From Herpetosiphon giganteus (GTDB lineage: Bacteria; Chloroflexota; Chloroflexia; Chloroflexales; Herpetosiphonaceae), in assembly GCF_016907925.1 (NCBI RefSeq), contig NZ_JAFBCZ010000005.1, forward strand, positions 62,001 through 126,000: 64,000 bases of DNA, read 5' to 3'. A program made the position numbers and the translations under genes. This document shows, piece by piece, positions 3,787 through 61,820 of this stretch. Positions within the stretch are counted from its first letter, which is position 1; each line of letters begins with the position of its first letter. A model generated the notes under the pieces. It was not told the DNA's origin, did no database searches, and worked only from the letters and a program-made list of their open reading frames with translations.

Positions 3787-5244
3787 TTAGCGTTGGGTAA
3801 TGGGTAAAAACGTTCCATAACTATTAAATGCAGTTGCTGGTACGTTGAGCGTTGGATCATTCTTGGCAACCGAGATCCAAACGCCCGCTGCCACGTCGTT
3901 GCCAACGCTCATTTGGAGTACGCTTGGGGTGCAGCCCAATGGGTTGAGAAACTGTTCGGCGATATGCAATTGATTGGCTAAATCACTGCGATAGCTAATA
4001 ATTTGAGTTGTACAGCCGCTGCTACTAAAGCTATCGGCCTGCCATGCAACCAAATCGACAAGCTGGAAGCGGCTACTTGCAAGATTGTTTTCATGCTGAT
4101 CAGGCGTATTGGTGAGATTAATCCCATCACTGGCTTGGACATCGTATTGCCAAACATCATAGACAAATGGATCGCTGAAGCTATTGTTGCTACCAGCAAA
4201 ATAGACAGTTGGCCGACCTGTGCCATCGCTGACGGTGCTAATTTCACTGATGCTCCATGGCTCGCGAATCGACGGCAAGACTAAATCGCTGGTCGTGTTA
4301 GCAGTTGCGTTGTGCATGCGCAGGCTATCGGTCGCAATTCCACGCGGTGGAGCGCCATTTGGATGCTTGATATAGGTTACATACACGTTATCGCTCAAAC
4401 TGAGATCGTAGACAAAAGGAATAATGTTTGATGCGCTGGTGTAACTATCAACGGTGCGCGCAGTCATGCCAATTAGCGTTCCATGGGCATAGCGAATTTC
4501 GTCGAGGGTTGGGTCGCCGCCAAAGTTGCGTTGATTGACGAGGAGCGAACGCTTGCCATAGACTACATGAATTTCATTGGCGCTATTGAGGATGATTCGT
4601 GGTTGAGTCAGAATAATATTGGTGGCGACGCTTTCGATCACAACTGGTTGGCTCAAACTGGGCACGATTTGGCGATAAACCAGCGCTTGCTTGGTTATTT
4701 GTTGTTCTTGAATGAGCATTGTGTAGAGCACGCCAACGCGTGAGCCATCGCTATTGCGCACGGCGATTGGGTTAATCAAGCTATTGTTGATGCTTTCGCC
4801 TTGCAAACTGACCGGTTGGCTGACGGTTGCGCCGTCGGGGCTAATGCTGACGACATAGGGGCGATAACTTGGCTCGCCTTGGGTCAAGCTCGTTTGGTTA
4901 CTGAGGTAGGCCAAGTGGATTGTGCCGCTAATATCGCCGGTTAAACTGGTGTAGCCAAGGGTTGCCGTCGAATTATCGGCGCTGATGGTGTGGCGTAACA
5001 GTTCATTGGGGCCGCGCATTCGGCTATAAATTAGGTCGCAGCCATTGCCTGCTTGGCATTCGGCCCAAGCGTAATGGCGCAGATCGTTGCTATCAACATA
5101 GATTGCTGGGTAGTAAGCACCTGAGTCGGCATTTGGATTAATCGCGAGTTTGGTGGCTGGGGCGATATACTGCCCACAACCCCACAGCGCTAGCAGCAAG
5201 CCAGCCAAGATTGCACTTCGGCGAGTCCAGGTTTGTCGAGCCAT
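3787..5244 (-). CDS. Putative lipoprotein, secreted, unknown function, C-terminal FLPITQR
   Basis: A 485-residue protein with a short basic N-terminus, a hydrophobic segment and a lipobox (LALWGC, Cys23), so it should be an exported lipoprotein. The rest is rich in beta-strand-like segments with repeated motifs of the kind AIYVDSNDLRHYAW and GTIHLAYL; these suggest a beta-propeller of the sialidase/BNR type, but no catalytic motif is evident. The protein ends in FLPITQR, like two other secreted proteins in this window. It lies downstream of the secretion ATPase gene but is separated from it by a hairpin, so co-transcription is doubtful. Confidence 0.65.
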   Translation of the reverse strand: MARQTWTRRSAILAGLLLALWGCGQYIAPATKLAINPNADSGAYYPAIYVDSNDLRHYAWAECQAGNGCDLIYSRMRGPNELLRHTISADNSTATLGYTSLTGDISGTIHLAYLSNQTSLTQGEPSYRPYVVSISPDGATVSQPVSLQGESINNSLINPIAVRNSDGSRVGVLYTMLIQEQQITKQALVYRQIVPSLSQPVVIESVATNIILTQPRIILNSANEIHVVYGKRSLLVNQRNFGGDPTLDEIRYAHGTLIGMTARTVDSYTSASNIIPFVYDLSLSDNVYVTYIKHPNGAPPRGIATDSLRMHNATANTTSDLVLPSIREPWSISEISTVSDGTGRPTVYFAGSNNSFSDPFVYDVWQYDVQASDGINLTNTPDQHENNLASSRFQLVDLVAWQADSFSSSGCTTQIISYRSDLANQLHIAEQFLNPLGCTPSVLQMSVGNDVAAGVWISVAKNDPTLNVPATAFNSYGTFLPITQR

Positions 5245-28305: not shown

Positions 28306-29124
28306 CTATTTCCGCGTATATGGCAACCAAACGTGTTCGGTGAGGCTTTCGGGCGGCACAGTTGGGCGCGGCGTTGGGCTTGGGGTTGGGGTTGCTGAGC
28401 CTGGTGGCGCAACATAGGGGAATTGCTGCTGGCCTGGTCTCGTTACGTTATCGCCAAGTGCAATATTCTCATCAACAATCACATTGCCATAGACATCAGT
28501 GGTGCGAAAGCTATAGGGGCCAGCACCCATGCCAGTTTCGGCAATAAAATAATTAAAAATAAAGCGCGGAGCCACTTTATATGGCGCTTGGCCCATCCGA
28601 TACTCAAATTTGGCAATGGCATTGCGATGATTGCGCAGGTGCACCGCCGTCCACCATTGATTGCTACCATCTTTAAAATGATAGCCAACCTTGCCCGTGG
28701 TGGCTGGATTGCTGATTAGTTGCCATGTGATTGGCACAATTCCATCAACCCGCCGCGCAATCCGATCGAACGCTTGCGGGCTAAGGTCGATATGTCCAGT
28801 TTGGCATTCAGGGCAGCGGTCGGTAATTTGTACTGTGACCGATCCCAAGGGACCAGTGATTTTAACCATCGCGCCACAATAATCCGCCGTGGCATAATCG
28901 GGATTATTCATCGCGCCAAACAACAAATCGCTTGGCAATGGCAGACTGCAATTGCCCAAGCCCGTTGCAGTGTAATAGGTGGCCTTGCCTTGGCGCAGCG
29001 CCCATGGATTGGTGATGGTGGCTGGGCTTTGGGCAAAGCTTTGCTGCTGCCAAGCATAACTCCCAAACACAACGATTAACAAACTTGCGAACAATAGCCA
29101 ACGAATCATGGTTCGAGTGTGCAT
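28306..29124 (-). CDS. Secreted expansin-like protein (double-psi beta-barrel)
   Basis: A 272-residue exported protein. After a signal peptide (LLFASLLIVVFGSYAW) comes a double-psi beta-barrel with the expansin hallmarks TYYTATGLGNCSL, ADYCGAMVKI and the catalytic-like TDRCPECQTGHIDLSPQAF. A second beta domain (KDGSNQWWTAVHLRNHRNAI, with FEYR) matches the expansin carbohydrate-binding domain, including the paired tryptophans. This is the layout of bacterial EXLX1/YoaJ proteins, which loosen cellulose or peptidoglycan without hydrolysis. A PTPSPTPRP linker and a C-terminal VWLPYTRK follow. Distinguishing plant-wall from bacterial-wall targets is not possible from sequence alone. Confidence 0.88.
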   Translation of the reverse strand: MHTRTMIRWLLFASLLIVVFGSYAWQQQSFAQSPATITNPWALRQGKATYYTATGLGNCSLPLPSDLLFGAMNNPDYATADYCGAMVKITGPLGSVTVQITDRCPECQTGHIDLSPQAFDRIARRVDGIVPITWQLISNPATTGKVGYHFKDGSNQWWTAVHLRNHRNAIAKFEYRMGQAPYKVAPRFIFNYFIAETGMGAGPYSFRTTDVYGNVIVDENIALGDNVTRPGQQQFPYVAPPGSATPTPSPTPRPTVPPESLTEHVWLPYTRK

Positions 29125-30839: not shown

Positions 30840-31997
30840 ATGACTGGTCTGCGTCGGCTTTTTGGTCTGCTCATTTTAGGACTGTTGGCGCTGGGCCTGC
30901 GTCAACCAACCACCCAAGCGGCTCCCAACGATAGTTTACACCTCACGCTGGGCAATCCTAGCAATGCGGTCAGCGATCCCTTGGTGCCAGATAATTATTT
31001 AATCGAACGCACGCAATATGCTATGGCCTACCAACGCGATGCTGGCATTCCAGCTTGGGTTAGTTGGCACTTGGAAGTGCAAGATCTTGGTAGCACTTCG
31101 CGCGGCGATTTTGTGGCTGATTCAAGCCTGCCAAGTGGTTGGTATCGGGTGCAGCCAGGCGATTATAGCGGCAGCGGCTATGACCGTGGCCATATGATCC
31201 CCTCAGGCGACCGCACTGTCTCACGGGCTGCCAACGATCAAACCTTCATCATGTCGAATATGATTCCCCAAGCGCCTGATAATAACCAAGGCCCGTGGGC
31301 CAATTTGGAAAATATGTGTCGTACATGGGCGCGGGCTGGCAACGAACTCTACATTATGACTGGTGGCTATGGCACAAAAGGCACGATTGCCAGTGGTCGG
31401 GTGAACATTCCCGCCTTCACCTGGAAGGTGATTGTTATCCTGCCTGTGGGGAATGATGATGCTAATCGCGTTGCCACCAATACTCGGGTGATCGGCATTT
31501 GGATGCCCAATAATCAAGGAATTCGCAGCAATGCTTGGGAGCAATATCGGGTCAGCGTCGATTATATTGAAAGCATGACTGGCTTTGATTTTCTCTCGAA
31601 TGTGCCAACCGCAATTCAAAATTTTGTTGAGGCCCAAGTTGATGGCTCGCCAGCGGTAACGGTTACACCAGGCACGGGTAGCCCAACCGCGACCCGCACG
31701 GCCACGGCAACCCCAAGTGCGACCCGCACGGCCACGCCAAGCGTGACGGCAAGTGCAACCAGCGCGGTAACTCCTGCAACTGTTTCGGCCACCGCAACCC
31801 GCACGGCCACGCCAGCAGTGAGCGTCACCGCTAGCCCAACTGATAGCGGCCCGCCAAGCTTTACTTTTACCCCAACGCCTTCGATCACGCAAACAGCTTC
31901 GCAAACTCCAGTCGTAACTGCGAGTGCCACGCCCTCAGCGAGTGCAACTGTGGCAATTCCTCAAGTGCAGATCTTCTTGCCCTACGTTACCAAATAG
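30840..31997 (+). CDS. Secreted DNA/RNA non-specific endonuclease with PT-rich tail
   Basis: A 385-residue exported nuclease of the NUC1/Serratia type. A signal peptide covers about 1-27 (LFGLLILGLLALGL). The beta-beta-alpha metal motif is YDRGHMIPSGDRT, with the general-base His; the magnesium-binding Asn region follows (TFIMSNMIPQAPDNNQGPWANLE). After residue 270 the chain is a Thr/Ala/Pro/Val-rich repeat (TATRTATPS type) and ends FLPYVTK. The start at 30840 is preceded by AAAGGA; an upstream TTG at 30819 is unlikely. It is a close paralogue of the nuclease at 60408. Its probable role is nucleic acid degradation outside the cell. Confidence 0.93.
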   Translation: MTGLRRLFGLLILGLLALGLRQPTTQAAPNDSLHLTLGNPSNAVSDPLVPDNYLIERTQYAMAYQRDAGIPAWVSWHLEVQDLGSTSRGDFVADSSLPSGWYRVQPGDYSGSGYDRGHMIPSGDRTVSRAANDQTFIMSNMIPQAPDNNQGPWANLENMCRTWARAGNELYIMTGGYGTKGTIASGRVNIPAFTWKVIVILPVGNDDANRVATNTRVIGIWMPNNQGIRSNAWEQYRVSVDYIESMTGFDFLSNVPTAIQNFVEAQVDGSPAVTVTPGTGSPTATRTATATPSATRTATPSVTASATSAVTPATVSATATRTATPAVSVTASPTDSGPPSFTFTPTPSITQTASQTPVVTASATPSASATVAIPQVQIFLPYVTK

Positions 31998-60407: not shown

Positions 60408-61820
60408 TTATTGACAGCTCACGCTGTGGCTGCCCAATCCGCTGAAGGTATCGCTGCTGTAGGCATCCCATGCGCTGCTTGGGCTAAAGCTATCGCTGCG
60501 ATTGGTGTCGCCTGAGGCAATGTTGGCCTTGCGGCGCAACGTGCGGTCGCTGGTCAACCCACTCCAACCACTGCTGCCTGGATCGTTGCCAACTTGGCCG
60601 AAGCTATCAACAACTGTGCCGTTGTAGGTCAATACCAAGGCATCGTTACCATTGAAGTTGGCCACGCCATTGGTGATGTTGGCTAGATTCAAGAGGCTGC
60701 TTGAAGCAGAGGCATTGGCAATTACATAGGTTGCGCCATTGGCCAGCGAGCCACTTAAATTAACGCTGCTAGTGGCGTTGGTCGCGCCATTCGCATAGAG
60801 TTGGATGCTATAGCCGCTCAAGCTGACGCTGGATCCAGTATTGTTGTAAAGTTCCAAGGCTTTGTTGCTGCCGCTGCCTTCCACGTATTCCGAGAAGAAC
60901 AAGCGAGTTGAGCTACAGCCAGTGCTTGGTGGGGGCGTTGCGGTGCGCACTGGAGTCGCGGTTGGGTTGCTTACTGAGGTTGGCACGGCGGTTGGCACTG
61001 GCGTTGTCGAGCCATCGATCCGCGCTTCGATGACACTTTGGATGCTAGTTGAAACATTCGAGAGAAAGTTATAGCCAGTCAAGCTTTCGAGCGCATCGAC
61101 TGTGGTCAGATAATCGCGCCAATCGTTATCGCGAATGCCTTGCACATTTGGCATGTTGATTGCAATAACCCGCGTATTATTGCTGATGCGGCTCAGGTCG
61201 TTGCTGCCTTGGCTCAGCACCACAATGATTTTCCAGGTTGAGTTGGGGATGCGCACTTTGCCGTTGGCGATTGTGCCGCGTGAGCCAGCGCCGCCTGTGA
61301 TCATATACAACTCATTGCCTGCGCTGACCAACTCGCGGGCGTAGGTTTCGAGGTCGACCCATGGGCCTTGATTGTTATCGGGAGCTTGGGGAATGATGTT
61401 GGTCATGAAGAAGGTTGGTTGGTTGTCGCTGGAGCTTGAGGTGCGGTCGCCGGAGGGAGTCATGTGGCCGCGATCGTAGCCGCTGCCGCTGTAGTCGCCG
61501 GTTGCGACCCGATACCAACCACTGGGCAAACTACTGTCTGATTGGAAATCGCTGCGTGAGGCGCTGCCAATATCGCCACTATCAAGGTGCCAACTGACCC
61601 AATTGGCGATGCCATTATCACGATGATACGAAAGTGCGTATTGGTTGCGTTGAATCAAATAATTGGTAGGATAGCTGCTGCTGGTGACCGCCCCGCTAGG
61701 ATTGCCCAAAACCAAGTTATCGCTACTGACGGTTTTGGCTTCCAACGGGTGAACCATGCTGGCCCCAGCAAAAATAATGACGAACAACGCGAGCAGGGTA
61801 ATCAGCCGATGATCCTTCAT
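60408..61820 (-). CDS. Secreted DNA/RNA non-specific endonuclease with lamin-tail domain
   Basis: A 470-residue exported nuclease. A signal peptide (LITLLALFVIIFAGASM) precedes a NUC1-type domain at about 30-275 with YDRGHMTPSGDRT and TNIIPQAPDNNQGPW, nearly identical to the nuclease at 30840. A short PTAVPTS linker leads to a lamin-tail domain at about 315-430 (RLFFSEYVEGSGSNKALELYN), a beta-sandwich common in secreted bacterial nucleases. The C-terminus ends in a Cys pair with the domain start (CSSTRLF and SVSCQ). Two paralogues with different tails suggest different placement on the cell or substrate. Confidence 0.93.
   Translation of the reverse strand: MKDHRLITLLALFVIIFAGASMVHPLEAKTVSSDNLVLGNPSGAVTSSSYPTNYLIQRNQYALSYHRDNGIANWVSWHLDSGDIGSASRSDFQSDSSLPSGWYRVATGDYSGSGYDRGHMTPSGDRTSSSSDNQPTFFMTNIIPQAPDNNQGPWVDLETYARELVSAGNELYMITGGAGSRGTIANGKVRIPNSTWKIIVVLSQGSNDLSRISNNTRVIAINMPNVQGIRDNDWRDYLTTVDALESLTGYNFLSNVSTSIQSVIEARIDGSTTPVPTAVPTSVSNPTATPVRTATPPPSTGCSSTRLFFSEYVEGSGSNKALELYNNTGSSVSLSGYSIQLYANGATNATSSVNLSGSLANGATYVIANASASSSLLNLANITNGVANFNGNDALVLTYNGTVVDSFGQVGNDPGSSGWSGLTSDRTLRRKANIASGDTNRSDSFSPSSAWDAYSSDTFSGLGSHSVSCQ

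Follow-up and report, generated by a model that had tools for sequence, protein, structure and literature searches.

A YLP-box at the C-terminus of exported Chloroflexota proteins: a probable ultrashort sorting or retention tag

The PEP-CTERM/exosortase system and related -CTERM systems rely on bioinformatically recognized, lineage-restricted C-terminal sorting signals carried by diverse exported proteins. The Chloroflexota are regarded as monoderm. In the type IX secretion system (T9SS) of Bacteroidota, the terminal residues of the C-terminal domain (CTD) matter, and a conserved Lys lies within its last strand (PMC11285876). PorU, the T9SS sortase, itself carries a C-terminal signal domain, the terminal strand of which matters for function (PMC11285876). 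A class of much shorter tails is already curated in NCBIfam: when proteins from relatives of the host were searched with hmmscan, two NCBIfam 20.0 models matched, NF050076 (sort_motif_YLP) and NF053834 (ultrashort_CTERM), each of them titled "YLP-box putative sorting motif-containing protein". The YLP-box entry, as displayed, names no partner gene, and an incomplete literature search returned no publication on this tag.

The window analyzed here, a stretch of 64,000 nucleotides, is part of one of the 85 contigs of the 6.16-Mb genome of Herpetosiphon giganteus. As NCBIfam already curates NF050076 and NF053834, the motif found in the window is not of a new kind; rather, the window appears from its sequence to contribute divergent YLP-box members (FLPY, WLPY and FLPIT variants). 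Two features of that class are seen here: the consensus and the window tails are short, of YLP type and placed at the very end of the protein, and their carriers are exported. The tail of a protein from a relative (locus L094) exceeded the curated cut-offs, with 19.6 and 15.5 bits vs 15 (NF050076) and 10 (NF053834). The window tails gave no match to either model even as 24-residue queries; because, with models this short, the HMMER speed filters discard most weak matches, the missing match is not to be read as a score. We propose that the YLP-box is probably an ultrashort (~8-residue) C-terminal sorting or retention tag on a subset (~5%) of the Sec-exported proteins of Chloroflexota.

Tagged and untagged exported proteins of the window

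The first-pass annotation drew attention to three exported proteins with the ends FLPYVTK, VWLPYTRK and FLPITQR, all of which are present in the sequence at the positions claimed. The first is an exported DNA/RNA non-specific endonuclease (30840..31997, + strand; PF01223, E=4.4e-57), whose open reading frame encodes a signal peptide, the PF01223 domain, a Pro/Thr/Ser linker of ~100 residues and then the tag (31974..31994), so that the protein ends ...QIFLPYVTK before the stop at 31995-31997. Its predicted structure was uninformative (pLDDT 36, from 10 sequences). FLPYVT[KQ] terminates all six nuclease orthologues of the genus (the host and five other members), and the tag is unchanged while the Pro/Thr linker varies in length and sequence. 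In the sister genus, the homologue ends AYLPILRR, and its linker differs.

The second protein, an exported expansin-like protein of the EXLX1 family (28306..29124, - strand; NF041144, E=8.2e-73), likewise carries a Pro/Thr linker before its tag (28309..28329, - strand). It ends ...HVWLPYTRK, with the stop at 28306-28308, and HVWLPYTRK is identical in the expansins of four further members of the genus. The linker noted earlier for two of the three proteins is seen in the nuclease and the expansin. The third, a lipoprotein (3787..5244, - strand) with the lipobox LWGC, aligns over its full length to the PDIAV family model NF053835, yet scores under the curated cut-off (E=1.7e-21). Its tag (3790..3810, - strand) closes the sequence ...GTFLPITQR before the stop at 3787-3789, in agreement with the tag consensus, and five further members of the genus end FLPI[TSA][QR]R. 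However, the residues preceding the tag are equally conserved and the family model spans the whole protein; the lipoprotein is therefore the weakest of the three cases, as its entire C-terminal region is conserved and not the tag alone. Its homologues were confined to the genus in a search of 60 relatives.

The tag is absent from the remaining large exported proteins of the window and from a second exported nuclease (60408..61820, - strand). As the first-pass annotation had stated, this nuclease lacks the motif; it ends SVSCQ, and its family was never tagged among the orthologues compared. The two nucleases of the window thus form a ready-made pair with and without the tag.

Terminal enrichment, consensus and phylum restriction

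The first-pass annotation proposed testing such tails for enrichment at the ends of proteins with signal peptides, and they were enriched there in open reading frames from ~0.85 Mb of the host genome outside the window. Among proteins classed as signal-peptide-like by a simple hydrophobicity rule rather than SignalP, [YFW]LP[LIVMFYA] started within the last 10 residues in 8/149 (~5%), which is ~39-fold above the internal density of the motif in the same proteins (p=6e-11). In non-exported proteins, the terminal motif occurred in 1/525, i.e., at background (1.1-fold, p=0.6). An earlier enrichment run agreed with this final one. Examples of host tails from outside the window include TIYLPLARKPN, QVYLPVAVH, LVYLPYVVK, QVFLPIALNNY and RIYLPFVGH.

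The tag was also sought in 301 genomes of the phylum with a DNA pattern for Y-L-P-hydrophobic-hydrophobic-x-polar-stop and a reversed pattern as control. Matches far exceeded the control in the host's own order (up to 34 vs 3) and in some families elsewhere (e.g., f29 and f45), with background levels in most others. Reading 40 loci yielded 44 distinct proteins with VYLPLVxR-like tails, 39 of which have a signal-peptide-like start, vs ~21% expected from all open reading frames. These proteins share little else; they include trypsin, M14 carboxypeptidase, LRR, beta-helix, propeller and BACON types. Dozens of unrelated exported Chloroflexota proteins end [VI]-[YF]-L-P-[LIV]-[VI]-x-[RK]-stop. Residue counts over 65 tails gave, in order, V/I/L, Y/F, L, P, L/I/V, V/I, any residue, R/K and stop, a consensus set in part by the DNA patterns with which the tails were collected. 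Y/F stands at -2, and V/I/L stands at -3 in 50/65 tails, a position that the collecting pattern left free; the last residue is exactly the fourth past the Pro in 58/65. The preferred consensus is [VIL]-[YFW]-L-P-[LIVY]-[VIT]-x-[RKHNQ]-stop, with 0-3 additional residues tolerated.

G281, tag-rich by pattern, was counted as noise: of its fetched matches, one ends a protein without a signal peptide, and the others end no open reading frame of at least 25 residues (for one stretch, only 500 bases were fetched). The readable matches in G064, G297, G124, G150 and G246 were mostly short spurious open reading frames. Two arrangements were observed among the collected loci. One protein (L094:9768-10331) has a tandem tag at its C-terminus, AYLPIVVKPAMVYLPIIQR, and L099:8700-16447 encodes three tandem RCC1-type paralogues, each ending VYLPMI[VI]R.

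A highly specific DNA pattern for the tag was scanned over 84,980 prokaryote species. It matched 15 contigs, and 15/15 belong to Chloroflexota (Chloroflexaceae, Anaerolineales, Caldilineaceae, Ardenticatenaceae, Thermoflexales and Candidatus Aquidulcis, the last of which we take to be a member of the phylum), in keeping with the earlier suggestion that the signal is peculiar to this phylum. These results also bear on whether chance, or the common ancestry of a few protein families, explains the tags. Inheritance within some paralogue groups is evident, e.g., in the RCC1 proteins of G230; however, the terminal enrichment, the unrelated folds and the background level in non-exported proteins oppose this explanation, and the enrichment together with the Chloroflexota-only matches refutes it, leaving it a negligible probability.

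Candidate readers of the tag

That the tag is recognized and serves in sorting is likely. Sec export would expose the extended tail at the cell surface, where a receptor or processing enzyme could recognize it; upon recognition, the protein would be retained, cleaved or coupled. The Pro/Thr linkers may bring the tail within reach of this reader. Against the sorting or retention tag, a mere anchor would be redundant on the lipoprotein, because its N-terminus is already membrane-anchored, and no partner gene proved universal. The neighbors of tagged genes revealed no shared machinery, only common families such as GGDEF and ABC.

The best candidate for a testable reader is a PorU-like C25 (gingipain-family) peptidase, which could read the tail at the surface and cleave or transpeptidate, as PorU does with the T9SS CTD. 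We advance tentatively, and consider unlikely, the proposal that in most tagged Chloroflexota such a transpeptidase reads the YLP-box and cleaves or couples the protein. With presence defined as a PF01364 match with E below 1e-20, C25 occurred in 33/38 genomes with at least 4 pattern matches vs 8/263 others (p=4e-31, a value overstated, as are the others of this comparison, by the kinship of the genomes), the 38 having been read by hand from a table and including the noisy G281 and G124 as well as the truly tagged but C25-free G216. A cargo-like control, RCC1, was more weakly associated (17/38 vs 43/263, p=3e-4). At the family level, for which the lists were entered by hand, C25 was found in 9/10 pattern-rich families vs 3/71 others, and within family f3, G158 has both tags and C25, whereas G134 lacks both.

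The C25 proteins themselves point in the same direction. A tag or tag-like tail ends 18/18 aligned C25 proteins, in which the catalytic His and Cys hardly vary, and the best match by fold and by profile was Porphyromonas gingivalis PorU (6za2; Foldseek E=9e-25, profile E=2e-56), spanning both the N-terminal and the catalytic parts. The predicted C25 model has a pLDDT of 87; its tail, however, is a low-confidence coil. The PorU equivalog model was the best match, yet it gave 205 bits vs a cut-off of 420, and the tail of the C25 protein scored 13.7 bits vs the YLP-box cut-off of 15. The host genome has 3 C25 genes; the one adjoining a sortase gene encodes a gingipain-family protein with its own end LYLPLTIAAP. 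Against a reading role, a tag on C25 would be equally expected of mere cargo. Not all C25 proteins are tagged: that of G200 ends VIYDLP, and a tag-like tail, VFIPLFFK, is encoded by the third gene downstream of it. C25 cannot be the sole reader, because neither the Pfam model nor our own 18-sequence profile finds it in six truly tagged genomes (G216, G037, G262, G142, G276 and G208); as a strictly required reader it was thus rejected. C25 may be one reader among others, or a favored cargo.

Several further features of the C25 loci were observed. One C25 protein (L185:6072-9077) has a tag-like segment, HRTYLPLVLRN, in mid-protein and another at its end. The gene order PqqD-like, radical SAM/SPASM, HprK-related kinase and PorU-like C25 is conserved in the distant families f1 and f45 (L168:7940-13873, L171:3258-9280, L177:3400-9721 and L178:3736-11479), and it resembles a cassette for peptide modification to which C25 has been joined. 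The immediate neighbor of C25 in families f1 and f29 is a sortase gene (L168:6918-7826, L171:9437-10348, L181:5915-6679 and L183:6693-7223). In members of the host's order, the gene just upstream of C25 encodes a protein that ends in an LPXTG-like motif (LPETG, LPNTS, LPRTG or LPLTA), a membrane helix and a basic tail (L174:9964-11286, L175:10030-11271, L176:5293-6744, L187:9101-9952 and L173:5181-5963); one such protein, when scanned, was a DUF11 repeat protein.

A sortase might instead be the reader, with the YLP-box as a reduced signal of the LPXTG kind, given that Leu-Pro is common to both, that sortases occur widely in the phylum and that they adjoin C25 in the two families just named. 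This is very improbable. YLP-box tails lack both T/G and a transmembrane segment, and genuine LPXTG-like proteins, which have both a membrane segment and an Arg-rich tail, occur beside C25. Moreover, because PF04203 matched nothing in the tag-rich genomes G168 and G200, the sortase is rejected as a universal reader. A dedicated enzyme may not be needed at all: the tail could be a passive, non-covalent retention patch, or dock as an end strand on an envelope component. The alternating hydrophobic residues and basic end accord with such a patch, as does the persistence of the tag in C25-free genomes and in sortase-free genomes; nevertheless, a non-specific patch would not keep the Leu-Pro and its exact spacing from the stop so constant, and we regard this alternative as possible but doubtful. 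Our results therefore exclude sortases as the universal reader and offer the PorU-like C25, its failures included, as a testable candidate. Identifying the reader would define how surface and secreted enzymes are placed in a large phylum that is poorly tractable.

Comparison with known sorting systems

The first-pass annotation suggested a sorting or anchoring signal. Its sorting half is supported by the terminal enrichment, the Chloroflexota-only matches of the specific DNA pattern, the conservation despite linker drift and the independent NCBIfam entry; an anchoring role like that of LPXTG or PEP-CTERM signals does not fit, because the tail has no transmembrane segment. Like PEP-CTERM, the YLP-box is C-terminal, carried by diverse exported proteins and lineage-restricted. 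Unlike the tripartite PEP-CTERM signal with its transmembrane helix, it comprises ~8 residues without a helix, and the combination of a C-terminal transmembrane helix and basic cluster was not found in YLP-box tails. With LPXTG it shares a Leu-Pro core close to the C-terminus and a basic end; it differs in lacking Thr-Gly and a transmembrane helix, no YLP-box tail having LPxTG followed by such a helix, and in occurring in some tag-rich genomes that are sortase-free.

With T9SS, a C-terminal signal on exported proteins is common to both, and a C25 relative of PorU co-occurs with the tag and is itself tagged, as PorU bears a CTD. A search for SprA_N (PF14349), which lacked a positive control, gave no match in 18 tagged genomes. 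The T9SS CTD is a folded beta-sandwich of ~70-80 residues, whereas the YLP-box has 8; no such C-terminal beta-sandwich of T9SS cargo was found, and what precedes the tail in the nuclease and the expansin is a low-complexity linker. If the C25 proposal holds, the YLP-box would represent sorting of the T9SS kind pared down to a signal of 8 residues, in bacteria that are regarded as having no outer membrane.
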